Shown here in pieces: positions 3,280 to 63,062 of a DNA stretch of 64,000 nucleotides (its first letter is position 1; every line of letters begins with the position of its first letter). Source of the stretch: Tribonema minus (lineage: Eukaryota > Sar > Xanthophyceae > Tribonematales > Tribonemataceae); assembly GCA_017506865.1 (NCBI GenBank), contig JAFCMP010000145.1, positions 62,001 to 126,000 of the forward strand. The letters are read 5' to 3'. The position numbers were made by a program, and so were the translations under genes. The notes under the pieces are model-generated. The model ran no database searches. It was given only the letters and a program-made list of their open reading frames with translations, and was not told the origin of the DNA.

Positions 3280-3312
3280 GCCGCCGGTGCGGCGCTCCCC
3301 TCATCCACCGTA

Positions 3313-7479: not shown

Positions 7480-7553
7480 ATTTAGTTATTGCAAGCCCGA
7501 TTTATCGTGCGCGCAGCCCATGCGGTCCAGGACATAATATACAACTTCACCTT
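7480..7553 (+). other. 3' untranslated region of the full-length retrotransposon
   Basis: A 74-nt stretch follows the ORF2 stop and recurs identically after the second copy (8633-8706). It ends in CAACTTCACCTT with no poly(A) tail, as in R2-type elements that prime from a structured 3' end. The repeat of this sequence defines the 3' end of the element. Confidence 0.65.
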
Positions 7554-17560: not shown

Positions 17561-17639
17561 GCTGAGGATGGTGAGAACACGCATACCACAGATGATGTAC
17601 TTCAACAACAAACATTCCCGCGTCCCCAACTAGCTCAGG

Positions 17640-22334: not shown

Positions 22335-22339
22335 TGCTG

Positions 22340-23540
22340 AGGCCATGAACTTACCTGGGTCTCTCTTAGTACAGCAGCGAGCTTGCCTAAGGCTCACCAC
22401 CAAGCCCCCGAACCGCATCAAGGTGGAGACCGTATCGGGGGGCGCTAACTACACAAGACATCCTCTATTTTGCTACGGCTTGCATCGGACATAGGGACGG
22501 CCCGGGAAGTATGGAGACGGCGGAAAAGCCTCCATACCCCCCGAGGAGGGAAAACAACTAGTGCTACCCCCTGCGATTCAGTATTGCATACACATCGCCA
22601 ACCGCCGTCAGTGTTAAGGATCTTTCTGGAGACAACTACGCGATTTACACAGACCCCTCTGTGAGAGCAGTAGGTTGGGGGGGGCGTTGCTGAAACTTGC
22701 CAGGTTCCCCTTCCACACCACAGGGATTTCAACTCAGGCTTTCAGCCTGGCCTATGTCCGATGCAGCTAGAGGTTAGGAACTGTATTGCTGCAAGCCCAG
22801 GCCATTATGCCCCCTATTTATTCCACACCAGCATGAAGCCAGTGCGTCCACTATACTGCTACGACACCTGCATGTGCTCACCAGCATCGTCTATATTGCA
22901 GGCACCATGGTACCTCTGGGCTCTACCTAGTGCCGCCACTCGATATGTCAGTTATGTGTTAGTAGAGCACTGAGAGCGCATTGCCATTCAGACAGCAGAG
23001 AGCGCTGTGGAGCAGCAGCACGAAGGTGTTGCTACTCCGCAGGGAGAGCAGTCGTGCCTCCCGACAAGCCAGGCTGCTTCTGGTGTCAGCGCCTTAGTGT
23101 GTATTTGCCATTGTCAGACGATCGCTGCAGCGTCTGGGGCGTGCGTCGTGTCATCTCGAGAATTTGTTGCATCGCCCTAGGCATACACAGACCTCAAGCC
23201 CGCAGTTCAGGAGGTCGCGGAACGCGGAAACCTTCAAGGAAGGTACCCTTGACGCTGCCGCGGCCTTCTGCTGTGTTGACTGGTGCTACTCTCTGTGCTC
23301 TCTTCAATCACTCGCTTTTCCTTCGTATGCTAGACGAGCCCGACTCAAACGGTACTTGAAGCGTATCACCTGCACTTCTGACTCCGCCTCGTGCTCTGCG
23401 AGCACCGAGGCTAGCTGCTGCTGCTCTCCCATCCCTCCACCTAGGTACTGTTGTGAGAGCTTGCACACAGCGGTTGCACGCAGGGTATGTATGCGATCAA
23501 CGGTAGATTCTCGGCTACACCTACCCAACTGTCAGGACCA
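22340..23540 (+). repeat. Duplicated block, copy B (upstream of the ARM-like gene)
   Basis: Second copy of the 1.2-kb block at 17640-18820. It ends about 85 bp before a TATA-like box and 200 bp before the ARM-like gene, so it probably contains upstream regulatory sequence of that gene. Confidence 0.85.
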
Positions 23541-26774: not shown

Positions 26775-26909
26775 GGTCGTCACGGGCGGCGCCGGCGCAG
26801 CAACGGGCCCCTACGACACGGTGCAGCAGCAGCCGGTCTTCATAGGCGGCGGCGGCCGCGGCGCAGCAGCGGGACCATTTCGTAACGGCGGCGGCGCAGC
26901 CACGGGCCC
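26775..26909 (-). repeat. Repeated copies of the gene's own C-terminal coding end
   Basis: Directly after the stop codon of the large gene, minus-strand sequence repeats the end of the last exon. KTGCCCTVS-stop and then TTGCSCAV follow the genuine KTGCSCTIS-stop. Each is embedded in a Gly/Ala/Pro-rich 60-110 bp unit. This is the 3' exon-edge pattern applied to a terminal exon. Confidence 0.7.
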
Positions 26910-27172
26910 CTACGAAATGGTGCAGCTGCAGCCGGTCTTCACGGGTGGCGGCGGCGCAGCGGCGGGCGCCGCCTGCGGCCTGCCCAGCGCCTCGCGCGCG
27001 CGCGCCTCGCCGGCGGCGGTGGCGGCGGCGACGGCGGCGGTCATGCTGGCCGCGTGCGCCGCCTCGAGGTCAGCGATTTGGCGCGTGTGGGCATCGATGG
27101 TGTGCTGGAGGCGCCCCCCGAGGCTCGCGATGTGCATGGCCTGCGAACGCGACTGGATGTGCGGGGGGATGG
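26910..27172 (-). CDS. Large gene, terminal exon 21: coiled coil and CAAX-like end
   Basis: The acceptor follows a long C-rich tract. The exon reads IPPHIQSRSQAMHIASLGGR, then HTRQIADLEAAHAASM, a likely short coiled coil. An Ala/Pro-rich stretch and KTGCSCTIS before the TAG stop follow. The last four residues, CTIS, fit a farnesylation CAAX motif, with Cys two positions before that could be palmitoylated. This would place the protein on a membrane. The modification is inference from four residues. Confidence 0.6.
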
Positions 27173-30100
27173 CTGGGGGGGGGAGCAGGGGGGGGGGGGG
27201 GAGAAGGGAAAGTGACTGCCAGCAAGTGGGTTGTCTGGCATGAAAGTGTGCATTTACGTGGTCGACAGGCGGTAGAAGCAGGGGGTTCGCTACACGATTC
27301 CATACAGAGCAGCATGCAAACAGGGTCAAATAGGGCCGTTGTTCAAACCTGGCTAAAATCCTGGACGATCAATGGTGGGCTACACATTGTCATTCCACGC
27401 GGATCTGCAATCCTGATTGCATGCTGGCATTTGCTTCTCCGAGACTGGTGTCAGAAATGAGTCCGCACTGTGCAAAGCTTTACGTGCACCTGCAGACGTA
27501 CACACGCGGAGCGCGCATGCTGAGCAGTGTTGCAGCACCAGCACAGAAGCTCTTAGGGCGCAGTGCAGACTAGATTGCTGCATATCATGTCGACCCTCGG
27601 GACACGCTGGACACTCGGCCGCCCTCGGGGCGTTCATAATCAAGTTCATGAATATCTGCAGCAGGGCCTGGAGGCTCAACTTCAACCCGTGAACTTCAAA
27701 AATTCGTACTAACACTCGATGTGCTGAGCTTTGTGTGTACCTGCAGCAGGGCCTTGGGGCTCAACTTCAACCCGTGAACTTCAATAAGTCATACCGACAC
27801 TCGATGTGCTGAGCTTTGTGTACATACCTGCAGCAGGGCCTTGGGGCTCCAGGTAGCCCATCAAAAAGGCGATCGCAGTGAGGTATGCAACCACTGCTAT
27901 GGGGCGTTCCAGTTCATTGGCCATGGGTCCCAGGGTGACGATGCATGCCTGCAAATATCACATCGTGGGAATCAGAACGAGGCTCAGATTCAGCGCTTAA
28001 AGTACTCGAAATTGGTGCTTGTGAAGAATCAGATGCGAAGACCATCAATGTTTTGCGACAGCATTGGCTCAGAACGCTGCTGCGCCAGAAGACAATGGCG
28101 TGCACCTCCCCTGAGTGACTTGCGCACTTGCAGACAGCACCTGCAGTTTCTTGATGAGGCAGAGCGTGTGTGTCGCAACAACTTCACGAATGAATACCAC
28201 GTAACGGCGCTTTGTATAAGACGCACACATGGTGCCACCTCATTGCGGGGGCAAATGTATCCAAGTTGAAGACGCACCTTGAGGTTGCCGACCGCAGCAG
28301 TGCTCAGCTCCCTCAGCAACACCACGCCAGATTCAAATCTAAATACACTGATACTACACCGTGTTGAAGTCTAAGCACACCAACGCCACCATGTTGAAGT
28401 TCAAAGACTTGCTATGCTGAAGTTTAAGACGCACTTGAGATTGCCGAATGCGGCAGTGCTCAGCAGCTGCGCAAGCGGCTCCACACGCCACATCAAAGTC
28501 TTCATACACCGACACCACACCGTGTTGAAGGTCAACCACACCTGATGCCACACCATATTGAAGTTGATGACGCACTTGTTGAAGTTGAACGACGCACCTT
28601 TAGGTTGCCGACTGTGGCAGTGCTCAGCAGGTGCGCGAGCAACACCACACGCCATGCGATGTGGCGATACAGAAGTCTGGCCACACCGACACGACACCGC
28701 GTTCAAGATATAACGCACCTTGAGGTTGCCAACTGTGGCAGTACTCAGCAACTGCGCGAAGGACACCACACCTCGTCAGAATCTCAATACACCGACACCA
28801 CACCTTGTTGAAGTCTACCCACACCGACGCCACATTATATTGAAGTTAAAAGATGCACCATGTTGAAGTTTACAACGCACCTTGAGGTTGCCAATCGTGG
28901 CAGTGCTCAACAGCTGCGCGAGCGACACCACGCCGAACGCGTCCGCCTGCGCGCTCAGCAGACTGGCGAGGGCCTTGTCCGCACGGAGCGCTGTCACGGC
29001 GGCGATGACGGCGCACGTCGCCTCAGTGCTCGCCGACAGGTGCGCGTCGGCGGGCAGCATGGCGTCGAAGGCGGCATTGAATGTGTCCTGCAAAGAGCAG
29101 CACAAGGCAGCAGTAGAAGAGATTTGAGTGCTGTGGTGGAGACCGAAACGGGTGCTAAGGAGATGTTGTTCCTGCTTGTAAGAGCTCGGAGGCAGTGGCG
29201 ATGCAAACGGCAACGGCGCAGGTCGCCTCAGTGCTCGCCGACAGGTGCGCGTCAGCGGGCAGCATGGCGTCAAAGGGGGCGTTGAATGTGTCCTGTGCAG
29301 ATGGCAGCAGTAAAAGATGTTTGAGTGCAGCGTCGGAGACCGAAACGGGTGCTGAGCTTGCAGGAGTACAGAGATGAAGATATTGATGCCGATCCTGCTC
29401 TGTGCGCAGACAAAGTGGCAATGCAAGCCCAAAGCCTAAGTGGGCAGCGCTTGTCAGACGAGATTGCGTCCACCGCCATCATAGATGTAGCGTTGTCAAG
29501 GGCAGACAGGAGTGTGCCACATAATTCAACTGTTTGCGCAGGAAACGCTGATGCTGCTGTGACCGACTCTGTTTCTTGTTTGCACTGTTTTTTGTTTGCA
29601 CAGGAAGCGATGATGCTGTTGTGATTGACACTGTTTTGTGCTCCCCTCCGTATATAGGATTCACATGTACTTGGCCACGTGGAGCACTGATATAGCTGTG
29701 ATGGATGCTGCGCTGCCCCAGTGCTCGCCCAACGGGACGAAGCCACTGGCATCGGTGTATCTGAGCTGGTGCTGTGCAGAGTTGAAGCAAAGGATATCAT
29801 ATGTACTGGAATCATGGCGCATAACTAAATGGTGATGCATGCATGTGCTTTGCGGAAGTCAACTCCACGCAGCCGCATATTGATTTGAGGTGTACAGCTA
29901 GGGATACTCATGTAGGGGTGTGAAGCGCATGCTGATGCTGCAAAGCACACGTCAAGAACAAAACAGCAAGTTTCACGAAGCGCTGGGAGTCCAAGCTTAC
30001 CGTCTTAGGGTTAGGTTTAGGGTTAGGGTTAGGATTAGGGTTACCGTCAACAGAGAGTATGTGCGGCAGTGTGCTGTGGCAGGCCCTTCCTAAGCTGCGC

Positions 30101-33100: not shown

Positions 33101-36100
33101 CGCTTCTTGCCTGCGCACCAGCATTGAGCAGGACTGGATTGAGTGCGTGCCGCGGCGAGCGCCGCTGCCCGATGGCGGGCGTGCCGAGGAACACTGCAGC
33201 GCACACTTCGGTAATTACTAACTACGTCAAGGAAACAAAGTAAAAATTTTGTTGGGGCACGGCGGCAGGCAGGCAGGTGTTGTTGCCTGCGTTGCCTGCA
33301 CGCGGTGACGCGTGTAGCGAAGCGTACAGCCCGCATTGTGCTCAGTTGCTCGCGTGCGCATTGCGCGCCGCTGCCTGATGGCGGGTGCGTCGAGCGCTTA
33401 GGGCTAGAGTTAGGGTTAGGGTGGGCTTAGGGTTAGGGTTAGGGGATAGGAGCGCGTGGATCGCATTGTAGCTATCAGCACACAGAGTGAGCTCCGGCAG
33501 ACCGCAGTGCAGTGTGTGTAAGGAGGTGTGCATTTCAAACGTGCCTGTTTGGATGACCTGTGAGAGGCAACACAAATCTGTTTACTACTGAGCTGGTGTC
33601 TGAAGCAGCGCGGTGGTGTAGAGAAGAAGGGTCAGGGTTCGAGTTGGGATTAGTGTTGCTGACACAGTGGCTGCAGTCGTGATGCACGCAGGGCGGTTTG
33701 ATGCGCAAATGTGTGTAAACTGCTGTAATTCTGAAGTGCGGATCAGCGCAAAGATGGTGTAGGTTTCGGTTTATGATCAGGGTTGCTGCAACTGCACGAG
33801 GCAGTGTCTGCAGTGAGGCAGTGCAGTGCGGCCGCGTGCGCATGTCGGCGGACGCAGCGGGCATCTCAAGCACTGCAGCACCCACCTCAATCACACCAGC
33901 ACCATGACTACATCTGCACACACATCAACACACAAGAAAACTGTCTCGTGACGCGCGCGGGGCGGTTAGACATGCAAGTGCGGAGCGGCGCAGTGAGGAG
34001 TTAAAGTTAAGATTACCGCAACCGCGGGAGGCAGTTGTCTGCAGTGTGGCTGGCCTCATGCGCATGTCGGCAGACGCCATAGGCATCCAAGCATTGTCAC
34101 CAGCGCCATGACTACCTCTGCATACTCCTCAACACATGAACTGCCTCCTGGTGCGATTGACGTGCTTCACTCATACTTACACCAAAACCATGACTATGTA
34201 CCTCTGCATACACCTGAACATACAAACTGGCTGGTGCGACTGGCGTACCTCAATATGTACTGCAAGCATGTGACGTGCCATCGCTCACCTGCATGACTTT
34301 TGCGTCCAGCGCATCGGCGTCAGCCAGCAGCGCATTATACATACTTCAATGTGTACTTCAAACACGTGACGTGCCATCACGCACCTGCGTGACCTTTGCA
34401 TCCAGCGCACCGCCCTGCGCCAGCGTCATTGACGTACTTCAACATGTACTTCAGCATGTACTTCAAAACGCGCAACGTGCCATTGCTCACCTGCTTCACT
34501 TTTGCGTCCAGCACACCGCCGTGCGCCGGCGCAATTGACGTACTTTAGAGTGTACTTTTTATTAATTCTCGCTCAGGGTGCGAGAACTCCCAGAATATGT
34601 ACTTCAAACACGTGACGTGCTATCGCGCACCTGCTTCACTTTCGCGTCCAGCGCATCGGCGTCCGCAATTGATTTACTTCAACATGTTCTTCAACATGTA
34701 CTTCAAACACATGACGTGCCACTGCTCACCTGCTGCACTTTTGCGTCCAACACTTCGGCGTCCGCTAGCGCGATGGACATACTTCAACCTTAATTTCAAC
34801 ATGTACTTCAAACACGCAAGTGACGCACCTGCTTCACTTTTGCGTCCAGCGCATCGGCGTCCGTCGGCGCAGGCACGCACGCGCAATCCACCCACACATA
34901 GTCAATGATGGGCAACGGCTCTTCAGGCTCCATGGGCCCCGTTCGGGAGCCTGTTTCGGACAAAGGGGGCTCCGGGGGGGGCGTGGGCCTGCACTTTGTC
35001 TCCAGAAACTTCTTGACCTGCGCGGGAGTGGCAGCGTGGCAGCACTCTGCACTCAGATACGTACATACCCCGATGCATGAAGTTCGAGGGGATTCGGGCC
35101 TGCACTTTGTCTCAAGAAATGCAATGACCTGCGTAGGACAGCGGTGGCAGCGTTCAGCGCTCAGATACATACATACCCCATTAAATGAAGTTTGCGCTTC
35201 AAGTGCAGTATTGAAGCAATGACGGTGGTGCTCGCGCGAAGCGCTAGTGACCTGGATTCGAGTGCAGTGCAGATGCTGCATGGTACAATTCATGTCCTTC
35301 GCAATAACATGCACATGTGTTCAAACTGTCTTTCGCGTCTGCAATCGCACCGTTACATGTGTGCAACTTCTGAACTACGGATCAGCCTTCGGGGGCAGCT
35401 CTGCCCTTTTGAGGGCTTGATTGTAGTGGCGTTGAGCCTCACACTCAACCTGTGCGCTGGCAACTGATCCGTGAAAGCATTCGCGTAGAAATGCTGTCAT
35501 GCTTGAAGAACTTCGGCTATCAACCTCAAAGTGCGCACCCTGATGAACCACCAGATAGATGCTGGGGTTTGCACGCCCTGACGTGTACTATCACACATAC
35601 CACATATGCTTCTACACTTCACTGGCGGCATGAAGCGCGAGTGCGGTGATATGAAGCTGAGGTGCGACGATATGAAGTTGAAGCGCTACCATGGCCAGGC
35701 CCATGGGCACTTCACTTCTTCCCATGGCACTTCTCTTCTTCACTGGATCTTCAGAGTATATATCTTTTTGATTTGTTTTTCATATACATAACCTCACACT
35801 GCCATGATGGAGTGCCAGGTATTTCTGCAGTGTGATACGCGCCCTGCTTCTACGAGATGTGCTCCATTAACACGCTTCTCCACTATACTGTTTTTTTTAT
35901 GTTTAAAAGTGTGACACGTCATTAACGGCATTTTTCACTTCAGCTTCACTGCTCGTGGGTGCATCACTGTGCAGAACAACCACACGCTCCATCTGCGCCT
36001 TCATCAATGCCATCGCAGTCGCCACTATGAATGCTACCACCGATGCTGCCACAAACGACCAAACCCTAACCCTACTAAGCGCAAGCTCCCCACCTGCACA

Positions 36101-54100: not shown

Positions 54101-55751
54101 CATTTGTGTCAATGCCAGATCACTTGTCCGCCTCCAGCTTCTACAAGCTGCAATCATGTGTACACACTTGTCTTGAAAACCAAGCTGATGATAGTTCAAG
54201 TTCCAAAATGGCACAAGTGCCAGGGGTGAATTAGCACTGTTTACCTTCATGAGTCCAGTTACTCCGTTCACATCCGTGTCAATGCCAAATGACTTGTCCG
54301 CCGCCAGCTTCTTGACGGTCCTCATGTCGCCTTTCTCGCATGCCTCCAGCAGCGCCACCGCCTGCTCTCAGCAGCAATCAAAGACACGTGCAAGATCATG
54401 CGTCATAACAGATACCTGCCAGGAGGATTTGACTCGTAGTGCGGAGTAGGGTTGAATCTGAAGTTATTGAGTGCCACAGCTCTGAGATCATTGTTCCGAC
54501 TACAGTTTATCGCATGCCTCCAGCAGCGCTACCGCCTGCTCTCAGCAGCAAGTAAAATTTGCAATAGATGCACAAATTATGCATGGTAGCAGGCGTCCAG
54601 TGGATTTGACTTGTAGTGCACATTAGGGTTGACATTGAAGTTGATAAGTGCCACCACTTGATTTTAGAACCACTGCAGTGTCTTGCATGGCTCCAGAAGC
54701 GCTACCTCGTACGCTATGCGGCAAACAGCAATGTAGAAGTGAACGGCAATCGGTACATTAATGCCATACTTTCAAGTACTGCTATTGGCTGAAACGCGTC
54801 ATGCATCATGAACCGTGTAGGATTCAGGGATGAGGTTGCTAGTAACAAAATACGAAGCACCTGTTAGCGTGTTATTAGGTGATTATTGATGAGGATTACT
54901 GTCCCACTGACCTCAGCCCTTCCTCTAGAAGCAGTCATTAACCCCATATCTAAAAACGAACACGTGAGAGCTTTCCATACTGAACACCCATGCCTCGAAC
55001 GCAAAAAAGCTTGCACACATGAGTCTTTTGACAACTGTGGATATGGTGGCACTGTTTGACTCGTGGCCAATTACCGCAGCAGCGGCAACCACGGTGATAG
55101 GTGCAAGCACTTCAATTTGACGCCCAATACACGTTGTCACCAAGAGCTCTACGATCTCTTTATTCGTTTCCATCAACAGAAGTGACCGATTGTTCAAGGG
55201 ACCTTCTCAAACACTGTCGGCAATGCAGCACTGTTGCAACCATGCGAAATTGTTGACTGGCCGGAGTTGTCGTCAGAGGAAAGCTATAGCTGTTGCAGCT
55301 GCTGCAGCCAGACAGCGCGTCACACAACACAAGCCGTTGTGTATGTAGTTGATGATTACTTCAAGTGCCTAGCATGTCACAGACCGCTTTCATGCCTGGG
55401 CTCGGTCGTTGTATGGCAGGCACGCAACCGTCCGCTCACACGCAAGAATAGTTACGACCATGCATGCAAGAGACTTGTAAGGCCTTAGCAAGCTGTGTGC
55501 CTCATCGCCAGCTATTGCCCGCAGCCAGATTCACCGACACTGATACTCTCACCCTATTCCTTTTTTTGGTCAGTGAGGTGTATGTTCATGATATAAAATC
55601 ACAGTTCGAATGATGTCGGCGTCTTAGGACGCGCCGCCAGCGCCGGCCACCTACATGCACACACAAATTTAGATTTCACGGATATTTTACCGGGGCACGA
55701 ACCACCCACCTTCGGGTCCGCGACCTTCCCGGAAGACTTTCTGCGCCCCAT
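26910..55751 (-). CDS. Ankyrin / HET-like / ARM-like multidomain protein, ~21 exons
   Basis: Exons in order: 55751-55710, 54361-54245, 53402-53345 (doubtful), 52950-52781, 51514-51365, 50609-50482, 49181-49100, 47626-47453, 45247-45068, 44060-43905, 43266-43210, 40803-40705, 39813-39788, 38884-38767, 36520-36398, 35017-34829, 32424-31880, 30677-30353, 29087-28881, 27948-27828, 27172-26910. All junctions agree in phase, including three phase-2 and two phase-1 junctions. The coding length of 3330 nt gives 1109 aa. Ankyrin repeats at about residues 15-367 run smoothly across splice joins (EHGQLE/IVRWF, ATGNHGDLAK/VLLANG, LHAAAQ/GGHLS). A HET-like module follows at 481-623, then Ala/Pro-rich linkers, an ARM-like region at 914-1022 and a C-terminal CTIS. 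Ankyrin parts bind ligands; HET-like modules are linked to self/non-self responses in fungi. I infer a receptor- or scaffold-like role and do not recognise a named orthologue. Additional in-phase exons may be missed. Confidence 0.7.
27828..29087 (-). CDS. Large gene, exons 19-20: ARM-like helical region
   Basis: Exon 19 (29087-28881) gives CAVIAAVTALRADKALASLL and VVSLAQLLSTATIGNLK. Exon 20 (27948-27828) continues ACIVTLGPMANELERPIAVV and AFLMGYLEPQGPAA. The leucine/alanine spacing and the IGNLK ending are ARM-repeat-like. Exon 20 ends in phase 1, which exon 21 needs. Confidence 0.65.
28270..28880 (-). repeat. Array of exon 19 3'-edge copies
   Basis: Minus-strand copies of the exon 19 end (QLLSTATIGNLK plus the donor GTGCGT) recur near 28280-28320, 28430-28490, 28595-28650 and 28705-28770 with increasing decay. 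One reads QLLSTATVGNLK. The intron sequence between them (TTCAACATGGTG-like) is repeated too. Confidence 0.75.
29190..29292 (-). repeat. Copy of exon 19 5' edge
   Basis: DTFNAPFDAMLPADAHLSAS is a near copy of the exon 19 start, preceded by CTGCACAG. It is cut off after the codons for about 27 residues and lies directly upstream of the genuine exon. Confidence 0.8.
30003..30043. repeat. Interstitial telomere-like tract
   Basis: Degenerate TTAGGG repeats on the plus strand (TTTAGGG, TTAGGG and ATTAGGG variants) in the intron between exons 18 and 19. Confidence 0.85.
30353..32424 (-). CDS. Large gene, exons 17-18: Ala/Gly-rich region with conserved helices
   Basis: Exon 17 (32424-31880, the longest at 545 nt) starts AASLDAHASRAASDYLPRIA, passes through about 90 residues of Ala/Gly/Thr/Pro low complexity, and ends GWGQIETTMAAFCGLELFVG. 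Its donor AG/GTATGT gives phase 2. Exon 18 (30677-30353) restores an Arg at the junction and reads WETKVAFRSVLVSPPDE, then an acidic and Pro-rich stretch, then LRKGLWQRIVEVFVSS. The segments before and after the low-complexity tract probably complete the fold begun by the HET-like module. Confidence 0.65.
31615..31835 (-). repeat. Exon 17 3'-edge copies
   Basis: IETTMVSFCGLEPHVGVR followed by GTATGT at about 31770-31830 copies the exon 17 end. A more decayed donor-region copy lies at 31615-31650. Confidence 0.75.
32425..33376 (-). repeat. Exon 17 5'-edge copies separated by CCCTAA tracts
   Basis: Copies of the exon 17 start (AAALDAHASRA type) with their CAG acceptors begin at about 32606, 32953 and 33375, and a weaker one lies near 33170. 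Before the genuine exon and three of the copies, the minus-strand intron end is a CCCTAACCCTAA-like tract running almost into the acceptor. Confidence 0.85.
34260..34828 (-). repeat. Exon 16 3'-edge array, ~110-bp units
   Basis: Five or more units repeat the exon 16 end (DADALDAKVKQ plus donor) at about 34280-34325, 34385-34430, 34485-34530, 34630-34670 and 34735-34770, each followed by the same intron piece (ACTTCAACATGTACTTCAAA in plus orientation). All donors are kept or nearly kept. Confidence 0.9.
34550..34595 (-). repeat. Dispersed repeat family 2, partial copy
   Basis: In minus orientation it reads CCCTGAGCGAGAATTAATAAAAAGTACAC, matching the right end of the copy at 44783-44885. It interrupts the exon 16 edge array. 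Confidence 0.7.
34829..38884 (-). CDS. Large gene, exons 14-16: HET-like module
   Basis: Exon 14 (38884-38767) reads VARFLRALKPTVWGYDLARV and ends LLSHGKLPSFAQ. Exon 15 (36520-36398) has NVLYVSHKWASADDPDP, with S542-H-K-W545. Exon 16 (35017-34829) has PIIDYVWVDCACVP around W602 and D604. The pairing of an SH(K/R)W-x-DPDP motif with a later YxWxD-x4-P motif resembles a HET/TIR-like module common in algal and protist ankyrin proteins. That assignment is from memory of motif patterns, not a search. The usual Gln after the last Pro is Ala here. Between the motifs lies a Pro/Glu-rich insert (PTPPPEPPLSE). Confidence 0.6.
36060..36397 (-). repeat. Exon 15 3'-edge copies with TTAGGG-sense tracts
   Basis: The donor region of exon 15 (AAGCGCAAGCTCCCCACCTG on plus) recurs near 36075-36125 and 36235-36275. 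Each of the three copies is followed, in gene sense, by TTAGGGTTAGGG. Confidence 0.8.
36847..37478. mobile_element. Foldback-type element with long internal palindrome
   Basis: The ends are inverted: CCGTTTTCAGCC at 36847 and GGCTGAAAAAAAACGG ending at 37478, with similarity continuing inward (TTCATGAATTTGAATGATCACCG against its complement). The centre is a palindrome with arms about 37081-37205 and 37260-37385. Each arm carries ACTTTGCGTGGCGGCGTG and a CAG/GCA-rich stretch beginning ATGTTTAGTGAAGAGGCTGA. The left end is present twice in tandem (36847 and about 37000). No transposase gene is present, so it would be non-autonomous. It lies in the intron between exons 14 and 15. No target-site duplication is clear. 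Confidence 0.75.
38390..38445 (-). repeat. Exon 14 3'-edge copy
   Basis: ITRAALLAHGKLPSFAQ followed by GTATGC copies the exon 14 end ITRGALLSHGKLPSFAQ with its donor, about 370 bp downstream. Confidence 0.85.
38579..38745 (+). repeat. Dispersed repeat family 1, copy B
   Basis: Begins AAAGCTTGCACAC, contains GGCACTGTTTGACTCGTGGC and ends near GATCTTTTGATTTGTTTCCA. It lies in the intron after exon 14, antisense to the gene. Confidence 0.9.
39000..39375 (-). repeat. Exon 14 5'-edge copies
   Basis: Several short copies of the exon 14 acceptor region (TGCCGCAGAGTGGCACAGTTT and variants) lie near 39020, 39130, 39300 and 39360, upstream of the genuine exon in gene sense. Confidence 0.65.
39788..44060 (-). 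CDS. Large gene, exons 10-13: low-complexity linker
   Basis: Exon 10 (44060-43905) carries a run of nine to ten Ala and an acidic DTADNDDDE end, with donor GTCAGT. Exon 11 (43266-43210, 57 nt) gives GDAPEADGPPGVLQPGASQ. Exon 12 (40803-40705) gives SESETAPNAPHIRTL and an acidic tail. Exon 13 is a 26-nt micro-exon (39813-39788), DLWSEQPP, ending in phase 2 as exon 14 requires. No domain is recognised. The acidic and Ser-rich content suggests a flexible linker. Exon 11 and the micro-exon are less certain than the ankyrin exons. Confidence 0.55.
40430..40590 (-). repeat. Exon 12 3'-edge copies
   Basis: The plus-strand string CTCACCA(C/T)TTC(A/G)TCGGTGACGCTCTC marks the exon 12 end at 40700 and recurs at about 40538, with a more decayed piece near 40430-40500. 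Confidence 0.7.
41590..42640. repeat. Cluster of telomere-like tracts in the exon 11-12 intron
   Basis: CCCTAA-type and TTAGGG-type tracts of both orientations occur at about 41592, 41660-41697, 41867-41890, 42048-42076, 42177-42200 and 42604-42637. The last has the two orientations meeting head to head (GGGTTACCCTAACCC). Confidence 0.85.
42430..43209 (-). repeat. Exon 11 3'-edge copies
   Basis: The plus-strand signature GCCTGAGC(A/T)(C/G)TGCACCTGTGAGG, the exon 11 donor, recurs near 43017-43045, 42831-42860 and 42434-42455. Confidence 0.75.
44110..44475 (-). repeat. Exon 10 5'-edge copies
   Basis: VLDSAPAEAQGSALAAAAAA at 44230 copies the exon 10 start almost completely, including its Ala run. 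Shorter pieces (VLDSA) begin at about 44378 and 44462. A CCCTAA-sense tract (44262-44290) separates the first two. Confidence 0.85.
44783..44885 (+). repeat. Dispersed repeat family 2, copy B
   Basis: GACACTTTCAGACTGTCATA through GGGCTTTTTCGCGCCCTGAG to GAATTAATAAAAAGTACAT. It lies in the exon 9-10 intron. Confidence 0.85.
45068..54361 (-). CDS. Large gene, exons 2-9: ankyrin repeat domain
   Basis: Exon 2 (54361-54245) begins AVALLEACEKGDMRTVKKLA, a typical first ankyrin helix pair. Exon 4 (52950-52781) gives TTLQACAYGHKAIVLHLVAA and AFCWAAEHGQLE. Exon 5 continues IVRWFVEESGGD and then TALDYVLQS, with a GC donor (AAG/GCAAGT). Exon 6 has AIFAAAAKGNAYYLLY. Exon 7 has TLLHVAATGNHGDLAK. Exon 8 is the cleanest (GLTALHTAAALGSDKVVAVL and QTPLHAAAQ). 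Exon 9 has GGHLSTCRVLLSRAA and GDTAVTLAFKGG. The joins restore complete ankyrin consensus units, which is the best evidence for the model. Exon 3 (53402-53345) was chosen only because its phase fits; its acceptor lacks CAG and its donor GTTTGC is weak. Confidence 0.75.
45340..46040 (-). repeat. Exon 9 5'-edge copies
   Basis: GGHLS(T/K)CRVLLS-type copies begin at about 45447 and 45860, with a shorter one at 45620 and a decayed one near 46035. TTAGGG-sense tracts at 45631-45652 and 45914-45932 separate them. Confidence 0.85.
46478..47452 (-). repeat. Exon 8 3'-edge array with TTAGGG-sense tracts
   Basis: At least eight copies of the exon 8 end (GQTPLHAAAQ plus GT) lie near 46478, 46628, 46740, 46875, 47008, 47127, 47245 and 47335. 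The one at 47127-47215 is long (SDEQMADAQGQMPLHAAAQ). Between them the gene-sense strand is degenerate TTAGGG repeat. Confidence 0.9.
47627..48243 (-). repeat. Exon 8 5'-edge array with CCCTAA-sense tracts
   Basis: Copies of the exon 8 start (CAG then VLLANGIKRDARSAE) begin at about 47812, 47992, 48068, 48150 and 48243, decaying with distance. The gene-sense strand between the nearest ones is CCCTAACCC-type repeat. Confidence 0.9.
50285..50440 (-). repeat. Exon 6 3'-edge copies, ~100-bp period
   Basis: The plus-strand string AATACATGC(A/G)(A/G)TATTCACCTT followed by GCAGAAATGCAGTACAG or a variant occurs at about 50288, 50387 and the genuine 50464. The two outer units are copies of the exon 6 end and donor. 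Confidence 0.8.
51238..51320 (-). repeat. Exon 5 3'-edge copy
   Basis: ALDYVLQSIDPEEQPHAS plus TEKYK and the same GC donor copies the exon 5 end, with one or two changes. Confidence 0.9.
51624..51662. repeat. Head-to-head telomere-like tract
   Basis: GGGTTAGGGTTAGGGTTAGG runs directly into AACCCTAACCCTAATCC, a perfect orientation switch within the exon 4-5 intron. Confidence 0.95.
51995..52780 (-). repeat. Exon 4 3'-edge array, 120-150 bp units
   Basis: Six copies of the exon 4 end (DPHNAFCWAAEHGQLE plus GTGAATGAAT) lie near 52000-52060, 52115-52170, 52240-52290, 52420-52480, 52545-52600 and 52670-52740. Each is joined by a variable number of GAATTCATGAAT-like intron units. Several copies keep a possible acceptor (GGACAG) 59 nt before the donor. 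Confidence 0.92.
53585..54244 (-). repeat. Exon 2 3'-edge array, ~165-bp units
   Basis: Copies of LAADKSFGIDTDVNGVTGLMK plus its intron start lie near 54075-54145, 53905-53985, 53740-53810 and, with stops, 53590-53660. A hybrid piece at 53400-53475 joins a copy of this edge to sequence resembling exon 4. Confidence 0.9.
54500..54720 (-). repeat. Exon 2 5'-edge copies
   Basis: AVALLEAC with its CAGCAGGCGG-type acceptor context recurs at about 54540, and a more decayed version lies near 54710. Both are upstream of exon 2 in gene sense. Confidence 0.8.
55006..55172 (+). repeat. Dispersed repeat family 1, copy C
   Basis: AAGCTTGCACACATGAGTCT through GGCACTGTTTGACTCGTGGC to ATTCGTTTCCA. It lies in the first intron of the large gene, antisense to it. 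Confidence 0.9.
55710..55751 (-). CDS. Large gene, exon 1 with start codon
   Basis: Encodes MGRRKSSGKVADPK and ends AAG/GTGGGT in phase 0, which fits exon 2. The frame is also open upstream to an ATG at 55976, which would add 75 residues. I prefer 55751 because it leaves room for a divergent promoter and gives a short basic N terminus. Transcript 5' ends would decide. Confidence 0.55.
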
Positions 55752-56023
55752 GATTGCGTCACAAGCACCACCTCCCAGTCCAGCCTCACGCCAGCGCGCC
55801 GCCCTCGCCTGTGTTCCTGCTGGCTGAAGGGACACTTCAAACTTCAAGTACCAGTTGAGTTTGCGAGTGAAGTGTTCAACCCCCCCTCTGTGTTTGTTGG
55901 TTGTAAACCACTCCAGATCTCTGGGGCACTGGGCACTGAGCGGTCGTCTGAGCAGCACGAGCACGGGTAGCTTCATGGTTACTCAAGGCTACTGCAACTG
56001 CAACTGCGGCGTGCAGTAATGCG
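55752..56023. promoter_or_regulatory. Putative bidirectional promoter between the large gene and the PX gene
   Basis: The two start codons point away from each other across 272 bp, so this stretch should hold both 5' UTRs and both core promoters. No TATA box is clear. If the upstream ATG of the large gene (55976) is used, only 47 bp remain. Confidence 0.5.
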
Positions 56024-59000
56024 ATGGGGCTGGTCCTTTCTACGCTGGGCCTGGGCCTTACCTGGGCGGTGTGCTTGAGCCTTGTGCTGGCGGTTGCAGC
56101 TGTGCTACAGCTCCCCGACAATGTTGTCAGAGAAGGCATACGACCAGGGCTTGCAGGCGCCAGGTAAGCCGTTCTGCACACTAGTCCCGGCGACCTTACA
56201 GGCATGGACCTCACAAGAAGCAGTATACTATATATTTTTGTTAAATCGACTCGACGAAAAAGGGGCGAGCGACCCGGAAAGGTACAGCCTTTTTTGTAAA
56301 TTGCATTTAAAGCGGGTCACGGGCATCACCTCAACTTTGCTTTCATCTGAAGTGCTCCCCCACTTCAACTTGCCTATTGACACGCAACACACACATGCAA
56401 CGCGCTGTTGACGTTACGCGCACGCGCGTACTCGATGCTGCAGAATTACATCTGCCTTGCCACTACACGGTGCGAGAAGTGCGGACGCAAGACAAACGAA
56501 TTGGAAGCGGTGTTGCGTGAAGCTTACTGGGTGCAAGAGGCGCGAAAGTCGATGAGCGATGCTGTGGTGATTTATTGAGCGCGCTTCAGACGCTGATGGG
56601 GCATGCGGGCAACAGGTGCAGGCGGCAGGTACAGCCAGCGGTGCTGTAGTCATAAATCAAATTACATGTATTCATTGCAAGCCTGCAGCGCTGGAGCAGA
56701 CACTGGCTAGTCGGCACCTCACAAATGTCAAGTGCATCAAAGCTAGCACGACACAATGTGGCATTGACATTGAGTTCACGATTGCTTCACGATGATGCGC
56801 CCCAGCGACTACAACATGAACACTGGCCCTCGTCACCCGATTCAAGCTGCAGGCCACCACAAATACACGTCACCCTGCGTGCAATAACGTGCATTTCACT
56901 GGCAAGCGTGCAGCCTGCCGGTACACTGACGTCATTGCAAATGTGCACGGGACACCTCATGACACACCGTGACAATGTAACAGCGCAGCGCACAAGTGAC
57001 AGCACACAGCTCAGCTCATGTTGAAGTCGTGTCCTGTTGAGCACTGACGTGGCTGTTCATGTTTGCCTCCCGGTTCTCAATGATCACTTCTAGCCACACA
57101 CGCACTAGCCGAAAGTCTTGCTTCTGTTTGGGTGCCTTGATTGTCAATCTCTGGCACTGTGGGGAGCTATACTCAGCAAAAAAGCTCAAGCCAAGCGTCA
57201 ACTCGAACGTGACATACTGCAGCTGCTACGTTGACATGCGTACGTGGCCAGGAGTGCTAGTGGCAGTGTGATATGGCCCATAATCACATTCGCGTAATAG
57301 ACTGCGTGAGGGAAGCTGGCGAGCACGGCGCACTGGAGGAAGACTCAATAAGCGTGTTTGCTCTCCTGCTGAGCACTGCTGCCACAGGGCCTGCTGCTGA
57401 TCAAGCAAAGGCAAAACGCTTTCAATGCTGATTACAACAAGGGACCCCTTGTATAAACTCTCAACACGTGTTTTGCCATACTGCTGAGCACTGCTGCCAC
57501 AGGGCCTGGGCGCTGCTGCGGCTCCTGGTGTCGGAATTGCCGCCCCCCCACAGTCCCGCCAGCAAGCGCGGGGGCGCCCCAGCTTCCTCCTCATCACTGA
57601 CAGTTACGGCAGTTACGGCGCGGCAGCAGCGCTCGCCGTCCCCTCGCGCAGCAGCAGCAGCTGCAGCAGCGGCATCAGTGCTCAGCGCAGCTAGTGGGGA
57701 TGATCCTGCGGGGGGAGTGGCAGTGGCGACGGTGAAGCCTGCGGCAGCGGCGGCGGCGGCGGCGGCGGCGGCGGGAGGGGGACGAACGCTGCTGCCTGCC
57801 GCCATGGCAGCAGCGGGCGGGAGGCACTCGCAGGTGCGGACTTGAAGTGCGCAATGAAGTCGGTGGCGTCGATGAGCGTAAGGGAGTGGTGCTCGAAACG
57901 CGCTTTAGAGCTGGTGACGTTGAAGTGCATGTGGGAATGGTGTTGCTTTCTTACTCTTGGTGGTGAACATTTTGTACGAGCAAGTGTTGAAACTTGTGTC
58001 TAGACCGCAGCTGCAGGGCGCGAAGCATTTCAGGACCAGGTGGCTGGAAATGCTGCTGGGCAACTTCACGCTAAGAACTTGAAGTAGCTGGCACGCATGT
58101 TGAGCACTGGCGGCTGATGCATTGAGTGTTGACGTAGCATGATTGGTGCAGGCGCTGTGCCTGCTCTGACGTGCCACCTGAGTGCTCCTTCTAAAACCAG
58201 TATTATGCATAGCTGTCCACAGGCATTTTCCGTTCTTGCCATCTAAATCTCAACCATTGCTGCTGCAGACCAATCAGCCACTTATTGTGTTGAAGAGCAG
58301 CTATGAGCTGCGGCCCGTGTCGCATGCGGTGGCCAAGCGATCGCGGCTGTAAGTGCAGCCTTGCAAGGCCTGACTGCAACACTTCGGCAACTGCGCATCA
58401 GCAACAACAGTTCAGGTTTTTGGTTACAACACCAAGCACTTGCTATTGCGGCTACCTCAACCCATTGCTGACGCTGCTGTCGCTGCCGCATCACCTACCC
58501 CCCTAGCCCTAACTGCAATTCTAGGCTGCGCGTGCCTCCTGGAAGTATTGTAGACCGAAAGCAGCGCCGCCAAACCCCAACAAGCAACGCCCCCTAACCC
58601 TTACCCCCCCCCACCCAATCCCGTGCCACTGCGCAGACGACGAAGCAAGCGCACAGGCGAGCGCGGCTGCAGTTTCTGGAGGGGTTGAGCGCTGCTGTTC
58701 ACGAACCCTACCTTCAACCCTAGGCTGCGCGTTCTTCTGGAGGTAGTGTGAACCATGCAACACTGCCTAGGTAACCTCAACAATCAACACCGCCTAACCC
58801 TACCCCCCCCCCCACAATCCTGTGCCGCTGCTCAGACGGCGAAGCAAGCGCACAGGCGAGCGCGGCTTCAATTTCTGGAGGGCCTGAGCGCTGCTGTTCA
58901 CGAACCGCGCATCGTCGACGCGCAGTTTGTCAGTTACAAAGTGGAACTGGCGCTGCCGCTGCGCCGAACGTTGGCGGCGGTGCGTGTGGGGGATGCAAGG

Positions 59001-62000
59001 GGGGCGGGGGCGGGGGCAGGGGTAGGGGGGGAGGGGGAGGGGGGGGCGCGGCAGGACGTGGCGCAGTGGGCGGTGTGGCGGCGGATCACTGACTTTGCAG
59101 TGCTCAGGTGAAGTACGCTTAGGGTTGGACCAGGGTTAGGGTTGGGGTAGGCTCAGGGTATCTGAGGTAGGGTTGAAGTTGGGGCTCAGCAGAGCAATGT
59201 CTGATGGGAGGTGGCGCGGTGGGTGGTGCGGCAGCGGGTCACTTACTGGTCACTGACTTTGCAGTGCTCAAGTGAGTAGGGTCACTACTAGTAGGGTAGG
59301 GTTACTACTAGTAGGGTAAGGGTAGGGATAGGGTCAGGGTTAGGGTCGGGGCCAATTGGGTCTCAGCAGAGCCCTGCCTGACATGAGGTGGCGCGGTGGG
59401 CGGTGTTGCGATGGATTGTTGACTTTGCTGTGCTGATGTGGGTAGGGTTAGGGATAGGGTTTGGGTAAGATTAGGGTTTTGGGGGTAGGGTCAGGGTTTA
59501 GGGAAGGGTTGGCGGAGCACTGACTTTGCCGTGCCCACGTGGGTGAAGTTGAGGTTAGGGTTAGGGTAGTATCAGATTAAGTTGGGACAGGGTTTGACGG
59601 AGTCCTGACTATGCAGTGTTGATGCAACTAGGCGTAGCGTTCGGGTTTGCCGGAGCAAAAGTTGCCCTCTTTAGTTGACCTCTGCAGGGCTGAAGGTACA
59701 TATCATCGCAACCTGGTGGCACTGACTTTGCTGTGCGCAGGCAAGTAGTCTGCGGCTGTGCATCAGTGTGCTGCCGTAGCTGGCGCTGGAGCCATCTGAA
59801 GTTTGCGTTGCATTTGAATCAGCGAGGCCTGCGGAAGGCTGAGGCCTGAAGCTAGGGCAATGCTTAGGTTAAGATGCTTAGGTTAAGGTGAGGATGCCGC
59901 ACCTGCAGGAGGCCACATAATGGTATAAGCTGACCAGGCTATAAGTAGGTCATGTGTCACATCAGTATTTGTAATTGAGTTGGGCTTAGGGTAGGTTGTG
60001 GACGACGATGGGGGTTTGAGCGGCCTATGGCGGATGAATATAATGTAGGCCCAGTGTAACGTCGCCAAAAGTGTACTATTTTGTGTTCAAACAAGAGTTG
60101 TTTTAGACTTTACACATGCATTGTTGTGCAACATGTTTCTTTCACGATGGTCAGGTACTGAGCCATGTGGGCGTCTTTGGCATACTTCACCTGGTGATGT
60201 TCCCCCTACGTTCTGCCCGCTGATCGGCAGAGAGCAGTTACTCTGTGACCTGGCTCAAATCGTCAGCAGCGCTCACTCAGCTGCACGGTCACGTTCAGCA
60301 AATAAGCAACAGTCTACTGCACATTGTGACATGCTATCACAGCGGCACCAGTGGCCTTCACGGTGACCTTGCCGTCACTTGCTGCAACCTCACAGTAAAC
60401 TTCACACAGTGACATTACTTCACAGGCAACATTCCATCAGACGGCAGCGTTCCATAAGACGGCAGCAGTGATCTTCACAACGACCTTGTTTTCACACACG
60501 CAGTAAACTACACATGGTGACATGCCATCAGGGTGGAACAGTCATGTTAACAGCAACCTTCACGTCATTCGCTGCACCCTCATCATCAGGGCTGCCCTGC
60601 TGAAAGCGGAGGCTAATCACGGCGGCGGCGGCGGCAGCGGCACTGGCAGCAGCGGCGGCGGCGGCGGCGGCAACAGCGCAGTGTCCCTGCCTGTGCTGCC
60701 GCACTCACTCAGGCGGACATTTGAGCCTGATCACCTGGCGAAGCGCGCGGCACGGCTGCACCGCTTCATGGAGGTGAGTGGAGCGTCGTATATTTTCAGT
60801 TGAAGTTCCCATGTACTTCATGTGCCTCGTGCGCAGCACGTCTGCACCGCTTCATGCATGTGAGTGAAGCGGAACGTCATAGATGATTAGTTGAAGTTAA
60901 TCCATACTTCATGTGACTCGTGCGCAGCACCGCTGCACCGCTTCACGGAAGCGAGTGGAGCGTCGTACATGACCAGTTGAAGTTTACCCTGTGCCTCATG
61001 TGACTCGTGAGCTCAGATGAACGATTCAGAAGACAGTTACGCCATCATAACCCTAATTCTAACTCTGAGTGGAACGCAGTGTTTTACATAGGGGCCGGCT
61101 GTTGCTCATCCATACCGCACGTGACTCGTGAACTCACATGAACTTCAAGGCAATTTTTTTCATTCACAGACGTGAGTGGGGTGGTGTACATGGGCAGTTC
61201 AGTCACAGTTCTCCCACGCTTCATGATAATTGAATTGCAACAATGAAGTCGCCCTAACCCTAACCCTAAGCCTGAAAGCCGCAACTACTCCAAGTGTGTG
61301 CACCGCCTTGTAAGGCATCATTGTTTACAATCAGGTGTTGCGTGTATGCTCGTGGCACGCGACTGTCAAGCCTAAACCGCCGGTGTGCAACCACTGCTAG
61401 CGCAAACGTCAACTTCTGAGCACTCTGCTATATGAGAGTACATGTGCTGGCACCATCGTCATCGCTGCAGTCGCTGAGGTGACCGTTGAGCTGGTGCTTC
61501 GCAAGGCAGGCATCATCTCGTCGACAAGAGGTGGCAAGTGTAAAGTGTCAGCGAACTGGCCTCAAGTGATACACCTCATGAGATTCATGTGATCCAGGCT
61601 GCGCTGCACGCTGCACTGTTTGGATAAATCAAATCGAAACGCAGTTTAATGATAATCAAGGGTGAGGCTCAAGTTGACTAACCTGACCCTAACACTAGCC
61701 CTACCCCTGGGATAGTCTTACACTGCGCACCCCTCTAGCATGCTGCTACAAACCAGACTCTCAACTCAACGTGTACTGCTCTTCCCGCCCCAAACTCTGC
61801 CACAATACAATGTGGATATGGTGACACTGTTTGACTCGTGGCCAATTGCCGCAGCAGCGGCGACCACGGTCATTGGCGGAAGGCATTCAATTTGACGGCC
61901 GACGACACCTTGTCACCTACTAGTCTAGCTCTACGATCTTTTGATTCGTTTCCACGATACTGATACCCTACATACCCCATGCTCTGATGGTGACGCTCAG

Positions 62001-63062
62001 GTGGTCCTCCAGGACCCTCTCATGCGCACGTCCCAAGACCTCTTCGACTTCATCACGCCGCGCGAGTGGGACGCGGCGCTGCCACAAACTTCAACTCCAA
62101 CCCAAACTACAACTTCAACAACGCCCGCGCAGCACCGCCGCAGCAGCTCCCTGGCTGCAGCGGCAGCGGCAATGGCATCAGCAGCGGACCGCAGCACTGC
62201 TCAGCAATCATCCCTGGCCAATCAGAATACCAGGGCGGTAGCGGCGGCGCCAGCATCAGCGGCGGCGGCGGCGGCGGCGCTTGACGATGTGAGCAGTGGC
62301 GGCGGGGAGACCCCGGTGGCTTCTCCGAGGCTCGGTCTTCGGGACCTGGAACGCGCCTCAGAACAGTCTTCGATCGCGCTGGGGGAGCAGTCGCAGTCAG
62401 ACTGCCCGCTGGGAGGTATGTATACAAGCGTGTCGAGAAGTTATGTGCCTGTGTACGCATGCATGCATCCCGTAAGCTGTATCGCGCGTCTCTTGATGTT
62501 TTGCAGCGACACAGAAGTGCATATGCAGAAGTGGTAGTCTATGCGCGTTGAGACACTTTCAAGTTTTCACCAGATGCATGTAGAGTTCGGTAGCAAGCTT
62601 TTCCTCGACCCTGGGCGAGAATTAGTAAAATGTACTTTTGCAGTTCACATCTGGTTTCCTTAGTGAACCACAAGTGCTCACGGTGTACTGCGCGTCTCTT
62701 GTTGATTTGCACTGGCACATATATACATACACAATACGCCTCTGTATTCCTGTGTGTACCACAAGAGCTCACTCACGCTGCACTGCGCGTCTCTTGTTGA
62801 TTTGCACTGGCACAAAAGTACATACACAGTACTCCTCTGGATTCCTGTGTGAACCACAAGTGCTTTACGCTGTACTTTGTTGTACTCATTGCGTCTCTTG
62901 TTGATTCGCACTGGCGCAGAAGGCTCTGCAGGCGAGGGATACGAGCTCTCAACCTCCCCCATGGCACGAGGCAGCATGTTCTCAGCTATGCAGGGGGACG
63001 GGAGGGGTTCATTGAGCCCTACCGTCAACGACTTGGGAAGCCCTGCATCTGGCAGTAGGTGA
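56024..63062 (+). CDS. PX-domain (sorting-nexin-like) protein with N-terminal membrane segment, six exons
   Basis: Exons 56024-56163, 57503-57833, 58836-59107, 60590-60773, 62001-62415 and 62920-63062 join in phase (2, 0, 2, 0, 1), giving 1485 nt and 494 aa. Residues 7-30 (TLGLGLTWAVCLSLVLAVAA) form a hydrophobic signal-anchor or transmembrane helix. Exon 2 is Ala/Ser/Pro-rich. The PX fold spans about residues 185-325, with YKVEL, RRITDF (239-244, the RRYSDF-like motif), the LPVLP loop (281-285), KRAARLHRF (299-307) and VVLQDPLMRTSQDLFDFITP. PX domains bind phosphoinositides on endosomal or vacuolar membranes. Two Gly-rich inserts sit in loops of the domain. The C-terminal 150 residues are Ala/Ser-rich with SPRLGLRDLERASEQ. 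No BAR or RGS domain is seen. The joins restore the PX consensus across exons 3-5, which supports the model strongly. Confidence 0.8.
57365..57395 (+). repeat. PX gene exon 2 5'-edge copy
   Basis: CTGCTGAGCACTGCTGCCAC followed by AGGGCCTG occurs here and at the genuine exon 2 acceptor (57481-57508). Confidence 0.85.
58625..58725 (+). repeat. PX gene exon 3 5'-edge copy
   Basis: GAAGCAAGCGCACAGGCGAG and TTTCTGGAGG copy the exon 3 start with its CAG acceptor. CCCTAACCCTTACC then a C run precede it, and CCTAACCCTACCC then a C run precede the genuine exon. Confidence 0.9.
59108..59750 (+). repeat. PX gene exon 3 3'-edge array with TTAGGG tracts
   Basis: Copies of TGACTTTGCAGTGCTCAG plus donor lie near 59245-59275, 59410-59440, 59515-59540, 59600-59625 and 59725-59745, with decay. 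Plus-strand GGGTTAGGG-type repeats fill the spaces. Confidence 0.88.
60825..60970 (+). repeat. PX gene exon 4 3'-edge copies
   Basis: CTGCACCGCTTCATG and its variant CTGCACCGCTTCACG, each followed by GTGAGTG- or GCGAGTG-like donors, repeat the exon 4 end at about 60842 and 60932. The neighbouring intron piece (TTGAAGTT...CTTCATGTGACTCGTG) is also repeated, again near 61120. Confidence 0.88.
61803..61955 (+). repeat. Dispersed repeat family 1, copy D
   Basis: AATGTGGATATGGTGACACT through TTTGACTCGTGGCCAAT to GATCTTTTGATTCGTTTCCA. It lies in intron 4 of the PX gene, in gene sense. Confidence 0.9.
62550..62640 (+). repeat. Dispersed repeat family 2, copy C
   Basis: GACACTTTCAAGTTTTCACC ... GACCCTGGGCGAGAATTAGTAAAATGTACTT, a diverged copy in intron 5 of the PX gene. 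Confidence 0.7.
62685..62919 (+). repeat. PX gene exon 6 acceptor-region copies
   Basis: GCGTCTCTTGTTGATTTGCACTGGCACA occurs at about 62690 and 62788, and the genuine acceptor (62891-62919) is the same sequence ending GGCGCAG. GTGAACCACAAGTGCT-type sequence is also repeated between them. Confidence 0.88.

Follow-up and report, generated by a model that had tools for sequence, protein, structure and literature searches.

Arrays of direct exon-edge copies in introns of Tribonema minus and their possible origin by tandem duplication

Transposons are often held responsible for long introns. Several other systems are closer to the arrays of partial exon-edge copies that lie in introns of Tribonema minus. 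For the gain of new introns, tandem genomic duplication (duplication of AGGT) is an accepted route (PMC3443670), and a potato RdRp gene has been described as a case of it (PMC4974935). As far as the available text of these two reports goes, there as here a short direct duplication touches splice-site sequence and is spliced out, leaving the mRNA unchanged. In the present case, however, existing introns lengthen repeatedly, the edge copies lie beside their own exon, and no new intron is needed. Since the copies lie beside their own edge, a single one among 68 being situated in the far tenth of its intron, they fall outside the class of intron gains. Small tandem duplications are also formed at staggered breaks by CST-Pol alpha-primase fill-in and NHEJ (PMC8355091). 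These are likewise direct short tandem copies, their size being set in that system, according to the available text, by the point on the overhang at which fill-in starts. A link to exon borders is absent there, the word "intron" occurring 0 times in the main text as available (PMC8355091). The earlier note on this DNA knew of no described process that would act so regularly at splice junctions, but tandem duplication at staggered breaks is already described and could do it; by analogy, the fill-in route could be acting in these introns.

In Lipomyces, [D] stwintrons are explained by donor duplication (PMC7138796). There as well a functional donor is duplicated in or beside an intron, but 4-7 nt are proposed in the available part of that report, whereas here tens of exon bases are duplicated together with intron sequence and are arranged in arrays. 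The introner elements of Amoebophrya also show repeats at intron borders; as described in the available part of that report, however, they form intron families spread through the genome, with inverted repeats and direct repeats of 3-5 nt (PMC7789003), whereas the repeats here are local to each exon. In the open-access literature searched, no report of exon-edge arrays was found, and tandem duplication appeared only as a route of intron gain; this is weak evidence, subscription papers lying mostly outside that literature. The present case works like the known tandem duplications, with intron growth as the result.

The window, which is the whole stretch of 64,000 nucleotides that was analysed, is part of contig JAFCMP010000145.1 (C145) of a genome of 158 Mb in 554 contigs. 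Exon predictions were given by a small gene finder based on codon bias, which was written for this analysis, and support for the exons comes from conservation, codon bias and splice consensus. Self-alignment of the window gave 95 direct repeats less than 5 kb apart and 16 inverted repeats at any distance; 87 of the 95 direct repeats begin past base 26700, that is, within the two genes. By Pfam scans of translations, only ankyrin repeats were found in the minus-strand gene (41000-55499 being covered in two of the three frames), and nothing firm in the plus-strand gene; one of these scans covered eight exons. Copies were counted with 60-base edge queries within 1500 bp, at a relaxed score of 27 and a strict score of 34.

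The ankyrin-repeat exon at 47453-47626 on the minus strand (exon 8 of the earlier note; gene finder; Pfam Ank_2, E 6.4e-9) has the acceptor CAG/GTGCTG and the donor CAG/GTGAAT, the slash marking the splice site. Upstream of it, five partial copies of its 5' edge were identified at both thresholds (47768-48238, minus strand; at 47811-47768, 47991-47948, 48068-48040, 48148-48122 and 48238-48209). Downstream, eight partial copies of its 3' edge were identified at the relaxed threshold (46479-47365, minus strand; starting at 47365, 47270, 47186, 47034, 46908, 46770, 46655 and 46502) and three at the strict one. Read base by base, the 5' copies comprise the first 27-44 exon bases with an acceptor-like end, which is CAG in four of the five, and those at 47811-47768 and 47991-47948 continue directly into CCCTAA-like repeats. 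The 3' copies comprise the last 24-59 exon bases and the donor, with TTAGGG-like repeats in between.

The coding exon at 52781-52909 on the minus strand (exon 4) was recognised by its open frame and splice sites and is ankyrin-like by eye, although Pfam gave no match for this exon alone. It ends with CAGCTTGAG/GTGAAT and is followed by six 3'-edge copies with 88-98% identity (52000-52722, minus strand), which were found at both thresholds, at 52722-52663 (59/60), 52591-52548, 52478-52419, 52298-52246, 52170-52117 and 52058-52000. The middle of this exon was also found to be copied, three times at the relaxed and twice at the strict threshold, because its edge copies extend beyond the exon middle. 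For the minus-strand coding exon at 34829-35017 (gene finder; no Pfam match), which is probably exon 16 of the earlier note, edge queries and self-alignment gave five 3'-edge copies (34289-34764, minus strand), four of them at the strict threshold. The copy numbers that had been given for these three exons were thus found again, for exon 4 at both thresholds and for the other two in full at the relaxed one.

Three further coding exons of the minus strand, each called by the gene finder, show the same arrangement. The exon at 28881-29087 has one 5' copy at 29292-29233 (56/60) and four 3'-edge copies (28278-28772, minus strand), the exon at 43905-44060 has 5' copies at 44224-44165 (55/60) and 44466-44414 (relaxed) and a 3' copy at 43873-43843, and the exon at 40705-40803 has a 3' copy at 40590-40542 (44/49). 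In the plus-strand gene, the coding exon at 58836-59107 was taken as the one formerly called PX exon 3; Pfam did not name this exon as PX. A copy of its 5' edge lies at 58637-58696 (plus strand, 55/60), and copies of its 3' edge lie within 59207-59740 (plus strand), at 59207-59270, 59382-59434, 59511-59537 and, weakly, 59720-59740. One 5' and five 3' copies had been claimed; two and four were counted at the relaxed and one and three at the strict threshold, which is a rough match.

For nine exons of the window, the relaxed threshold gave 30 copies of 3' edges downstream and 0 upstream, 14 copies of 5' edges upstream and 0 downstream, and 6 copies of middles, which were tested in eight of the nine; in the controls, 3' edges gave 0, and 5' edges gave 2 with reversed and 0 with reverse-complement sequence. 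The strict threshold gave 23 and 0 for 3' edges, 9 and 0 for 5' edges, 3 for middles and 0 in the controls.

Since the exons of the window rest on prediction, chaperonin genes were used, the exons of which are known from conservation. A Pfam family search of the same genome yielded ten genes (loci L017-L026), two of which, read by eye, we take to be plastid cpn60. A RuBisCO small subunit was not found in the assembly, and together these observations would fit a photosynthetic protist that lacks a green-type plastid. From the gene-finder output, 75 exons were hand-picked using the places of the Pfam matches; the choice between copy and real exon and the contiguity of neighbours were judged partly by known chaperonin sequences, and doubtful or copy-like predicted exons were excluded as queries. 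One locus, L021, contributed exons and no introns, and the intron set comprises 53 introns. With 40-base queries, and with reversed targets and reverse-complement queries as controls, 5' edges were found copied 32 times upstream and 2 times downstream, and 3' edges 61 times downstream and 0 times upstream. Middles, tested in the 59 exons long enough, gave 1 copy upstream and 5 downstream, and the controls gave 0. A second, uncurated set of 75 machine-predicted exons (14 from the window and 61 from loci L002-L016) gave 32 upstream and 3 downstream copies of 5' edges, 23 downstream copies and 1 upstream copy of 3' edges, 2 upstream and 3 downstream copies of middles (66 tested), and 0-2 copies per class in the controls.

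The arrays of edge copies are therefore real, being seen in the window, in the ten chaperonin loci and in 15 other loci, and edges are copied far more often than exon middles (61 and 32 against 6 in the chaperonin exons). The earlier statement that this holds at most exons is too strong outside the window: a 5' copy accompanies 16 of the 75 curated exons and a 3' copy 30 of them, and an edge family is present in 31 of the 53 chaperonin introns. The genes differ in this respect, some being almost without arrays (L019, L023), whereas in others arrays make up about half of the intron sequence. That the arrays are an artefact of assembly has a negligible probability, since the copies have diverged to about 91% identity and in many cases contain different lengths of exon; furthermore, the units of an L025 array differ by 5-32% and hold distinct places, and the pattern recurs in each of the three groups of loci. 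For annotation the arrays call for caution, as the gene finder of this analysis took several edge copies with intact splice sites for exons, among them four 102-base copies of the 3' edge of the L025 exon 5930-6229.

With queries of at most 60 bases and the window exons included, the splice site was reached by 109 of 118 copies. The exon parts of the copies have a mean identity of 91.4%, the donor GT or GC is kept in 63 of 71 copies and the acceptor CAG in 32 of 38. From the per-base identity, about 59 and 29 would be expected, numbers which are slightly exceeded. Among 43 indels in the copies, 40 are not multiples of three and 38 are of 1-2 bp. The possibility that the copies are coding sequence was rejected on the basis of these 38 short indels. 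Differences between exon and copy are most frequent at the third codon position, with 260/1734 compared to 110/1727 and 87/1742 at the other two, and copy-specific differences number 124, 70 and 56 at positions 3, 1 and 2. An excess at third positions is possible without coding, because an early copy retains ancestral synonymous bases of the exon. Judged by their frameshifting indels, the copies look non-functional and free of constraint. A function as recursive-splicing points or decoy splice sites is thus considered very improbable. It would fit with GT following the acceptor at 37 of 82 exon starts, since such an edge copy can read as an acceptor plus a donor, and with offsets between copies that are rarely below 80 bp (3 of 90 pairs); however, the retention of splice sites is barely above the prediction from neighbouring exon-derived bases, and the 40 indels that are not multiples of three speak against it as well.

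For 56 of 90 pairs of direct repeats in introns, the offset is 80-179 bp. Within one array the extent of exon can vary, as in the five copies before the exon at L020 6598, which hold 112, 60, 65, 57 and 48 bp. Because of such variation in several arrays, those copies look like separate events and not like one amplified unit. Where the extent is uniform, as at L024 3501 and in all but one of the five L025 5930 copies, the array has the appearance of a single unit that was amplified. In young arrays, for example the same two, the homology extends over the whole period, including exon and intron part.

The two parts of a copy differ in their similarity. Over 40 bp past the splice consensus, the intron parts show a mean identity of 63%, with 57 of 109 above the 95% level of random sequence, and fewer than 15 intron bases align in 23 of 71 edge pairs. 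This low identity could be caused by fast-changing simple repeats in the linkers, by later deletions or by gene conversion of the exon parts. Conversion from the real exon, acting on top of duplication and keeping the exon parts of the copies similar, would account for 91% identity in exon parts next to 63% over 40 bp of intron parts, for a copy-to-copy identity of 86% in exon and 79% in intron parts (by a gap-friendly alignment, which flatters unrelated sequence), and for arrays such as that at L020 6598, in which near-identical exon parts are joined by dissimilar linkers. However, the linkers are rich in simple repeats and may merely change faster, and where intron parts can be aligned they agree with the neutral ratio. 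In BLAST alignments, exon parts are 91% and intron parts 83% identical, and the corresponding divergences of 9.3% and 17.1% are near the expected 1:2, because only the copy changes in the exon part and both sides change in the intron part. A contribution of gene conversion is regarded as unlikely.

Most copies hold an exon edge and its splice site, often with some adjoining intron. They run in the same direction as the exon and lie on the intron side of the edge that they repeat. We consider it probable that introns grow because short stretches are repeatedly duplicated in direct tandem orientation, mostly at spacings of 80-180 bp, and that duplications straddling a junction are favoured. A break or staggered nicks by an exon border, followed by fill-in and rejoining, or else slippage of the replication fork, would duplicate the stretch. 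The spliceosome would then join the exons at the outermost real donor and the last real acceptor and so take out the extra copy, and since the protein would remain unchanged, an event that crosses a junction could be fixed. Duplications within or across whole exons would change the protein and be lost. Each new event would copy the real edge and displace older copies outward, so that nearer copies would on average be younger. A decay of the copies with distance from the real exon, as had been reported, was found on average (identity of the nearest minus that of the farthest copy +0.040, 26 arrays, p = 0.006), but not in every array.

Among donor copies 30 of 44, and among acceptor copies 22 of 24, lie in the half of the intron on the side of their own edge. 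This distribution bears on the idea that the arrays were left behind by introner-like mobile elements, or when introns were gained through tandem duplication of AGGT-holding exon segments. Introns are known to be gained by tandem genomic duplication (PMC3443670, in the part available), and CAG/GT flanks many introns on both sides. Intron gain would be expected to place copies at the far end from their own edge, but the far tenth of the introns contains 1 of 44 donor and 0 of 24 acceptor copies, and the sole unit searched against the whole genome, L025:6230-6395, matches its own array, its own exon and one exon of a related gene, as opposed to a mobile element. This origin of the arrays is highly unlikely, still more so than a function of the copies, although intron gain by duplication may be an older origin of the introns themselves. 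Among the 82 exons of the curated L017-L026 set and the window, 65 begin with G after the acceptor and 37 with GT, which is a sign of introns at CAG/GT sites.

Much of the contrast between edges and middles can be explained without a special process. Selection purges duplications that stay inside an exon or take in all of it, but splicing removes the extra copy when a single junction is crossed. In addition, an edge copy can be recognised for longer, since the real exon with which it is compared does not change. As edges must exceed middles on these grounds alone, the proper comparison is that of edges with intron interiors. In the 53 chaperonin introns, 60 repeat families were identified, 26 with a donor edge, 16 with an acceptor edge and 18 without either; among these 18, two copy exon stretches missing the edge and three start at most 7 bp from the donor. 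Of the pieces whose frequent duplication would have spoken against the earlier note, exon middles are rarely copied, but edge-free pieces of intron are duplicated too (the 18 of 60 families).

The comparison was made with simulations of random duplication, substitution, small indels and a selection rule, the output of which was measured like the real data, in 30 runs, 16 unboosted and 14 with a boost at junctions. The fraction of edge families was 0.31-0.54 in 13 unboosted runs and 0.54-0.80 in the 14 boosted ones, and 0.55-0.62 in three unboosted runs with ancestral introns of 300-360 bp. The observed 42 of 60 (70%; locus bootstrap 57-82%) stands against 48-54% for random duplication on the real sizes of exons and non-redundant introns (p 0.0005-0.007). 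For young pairs, chosen by intron identity alone, 13 of 24 (54%) are edge pairs, whereas the 16 unboosted runs give 26% when pooled (p = 0.003); on real sizes the share is 25-28%, single unboosted runs range over 14-38%, and against the highest of them (0.38) the difference has p = 0.08. A junction boost of about 4-7 comes nearest to edge fraction, young pairs and flat coverage together.

Random tandem duplication along the genes, with purifying selection and the longer recognisability of edge copies sufficing and no preference for junctions, would agree with the 18 of 60 families without an edge, with exon and intron divergences (9.3% and 17.1%) close to 1:2, with a repeat coverage that does not drop away from exons, and with the copy numbers that simulations with ancestral introns of 300-360 bp approach (0.50-0.60 copies per edge in two of the three runs, near the observed 0.62). 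In these simulations, short ancestral introns narrow the gap between random duplication and the observed edge bias. However, the same runs predict 41-52% redundant intron, compared to 27% observed, and a steep inward rise of coverage, and the excess of edges over the 48-54% null and among young pairs (54% versus 26%) is also against it. Random placement predicts coverage rising inward, whereas in real introns the coverage in 100-bp bins from the nearest exon is flat (0.32, 0.39, 0.41, 0.33, 0.29, 0.38, 0.43). Past 700 bp it is 0, with only about 1 kb of sequence there; in exons it drops from 0.43 (3' edge) and 0.27 (5' edge) to about zero past 125 bp. We therefore judge random duplication alone possible but rather doubtful, and in these models a preference for junctions is likely. 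All runs on real gene sizes, boosted or not, gave a redundancy of 0.35-0.43, above the observed 0.27, and the short exon reach was reproduced by no run: more than 80 bp of exon are held in 4 of 46 real edge pairs, compared to 29-44% in the 14 runs that measured reach.

Repeats outside introns also bear on random duplication. In the chaperonin introns, direct pairs amount to 2.36 per kb and inverted pairs to 0.08 per kb, so that direct orientation and close spacing prevail. For direct pairs, the first gene of the window gave 2.89 per kb and the second 1.00, random loci L008-L016 pooled gave 0.65, and L002-L007, from the contig of the window, 0.2 to 2.0. Positions 1-26000 of the window gave 0.15 and 5' flanks (4.65 kb) 0.22, whereas 0 were found in 4.6 kb of 3' flanks and 0 in coding exons joined end to end. 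Repeats are far denser in chaperonin introns than in the sampled non-genic DNA, which disfavours random duplication; the difference shrinks when only families without an edge are counted (18 in 38 kb, compared to 5 pairs in 35 kb, p = 0.012). A stronger form of the preferred explanation by junction-straddling tandem duplication takes splice junctions to be mutational hot spots. Some process linked to exon borders or to splicing would there give rise to junction-centred tandem duplications again and again, several-fold over intron elsewhere and far over non-genic DNA, and many genes would owe much of their intron length to it. In our estimate this form is evenly balanced between right and wrong. 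If junctions are such hot spots, splicing or exon chromatin would directly shape the mutation of DNA.

The idea that introns grow outward from splice junctions was borne out in part. Edge-spanning duplications lengthen introns, the number of bases covered by repeats being correlated with length in the 53 introns (rho 0.67, p = 3e-8). Events that span a junction seem to be more frequent than in simulated random duplication. Outward growth is not reflected in the coverage, which is flat and does not fall away from the nearest exon edge. The non-redundant part of the introns has a mean of 466-634 bp per gene, and repeat cover ranges from 4-5% (L019, L023) to 50-54% (L017, L025, L026). The five introns of L023 have a mean of 487 bp and 5% repeat cover, the six of L025 a mean of 1124 bp and 54%. 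As these two are related cpn60 genes with largely common exons, the difference in their introns would have arisen after their separation. Myosin genes on contigs C79 and C540 may be recent paralogues; to judge from the match places in the two C79 genes, one intron would measure about 0.9 kb in the first and 1.9 kb in the second. In the housekeeping genes analysed, introns have thus become longer as stretches at their own borders were duplicated locally, and the real exon is a fixed reference by which each duplication event can be dated, giving a direct view of intron lengthening.

Telomere-like repeats in these introns are oriented. In the window (26700-55500, minus strand), TTAGGG stands after exons at a ratio of 14:1 and CCCTAA before exons at 16:5, and in the introns of L017-L026, 17 of 19 TTAGGG lie in the first half and 6 of 7 CCCTAA in the second. 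TTAGGG is the telomere repeat of this genome, found at 4 of 20 contig ends. A G-richer donor side and a C-rich acceptor side may be enough to explain the orientation. At inner copy junctions, TTAGGG or its complement occurs in 4 of 109 cases, with a background of 2.0%. The motif ACTTCAA and its complement TTGAAGT are over-represented 17- to 21-fold in the introns of L017-L026 (43 and 38 times in 38 kb), and one or the other is present at 13 of 109 inner copy junctions, three-fold over a background of 4.1% (p = 0.0005).

Other repeats were identified elsewhere in the window. A long open reading frame at 3280-8706, reverse-transcriptase-like by reading of its translation, contains a tandem duplication of 1153 bp with 99.9% identity (6401-7553 and 7554-8706). 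Two tandem copies of a 465-bp unit, 98% alike, lie at 9454-10385, and a direct repeat of 1.2 kb with 88% identity is found at 17630-18800 and 22333-23525. The sequence at 37002-37470 is a near-palindrome, with 80% identity to its own reverse complement over 485 columns. A repeat of about 150 bp, which may be a small mobile element, is dispersed in both orientations at 12886-13037, 38600-38750, 55027-55169 and 61811-61951, the copies being 78-88% alike.
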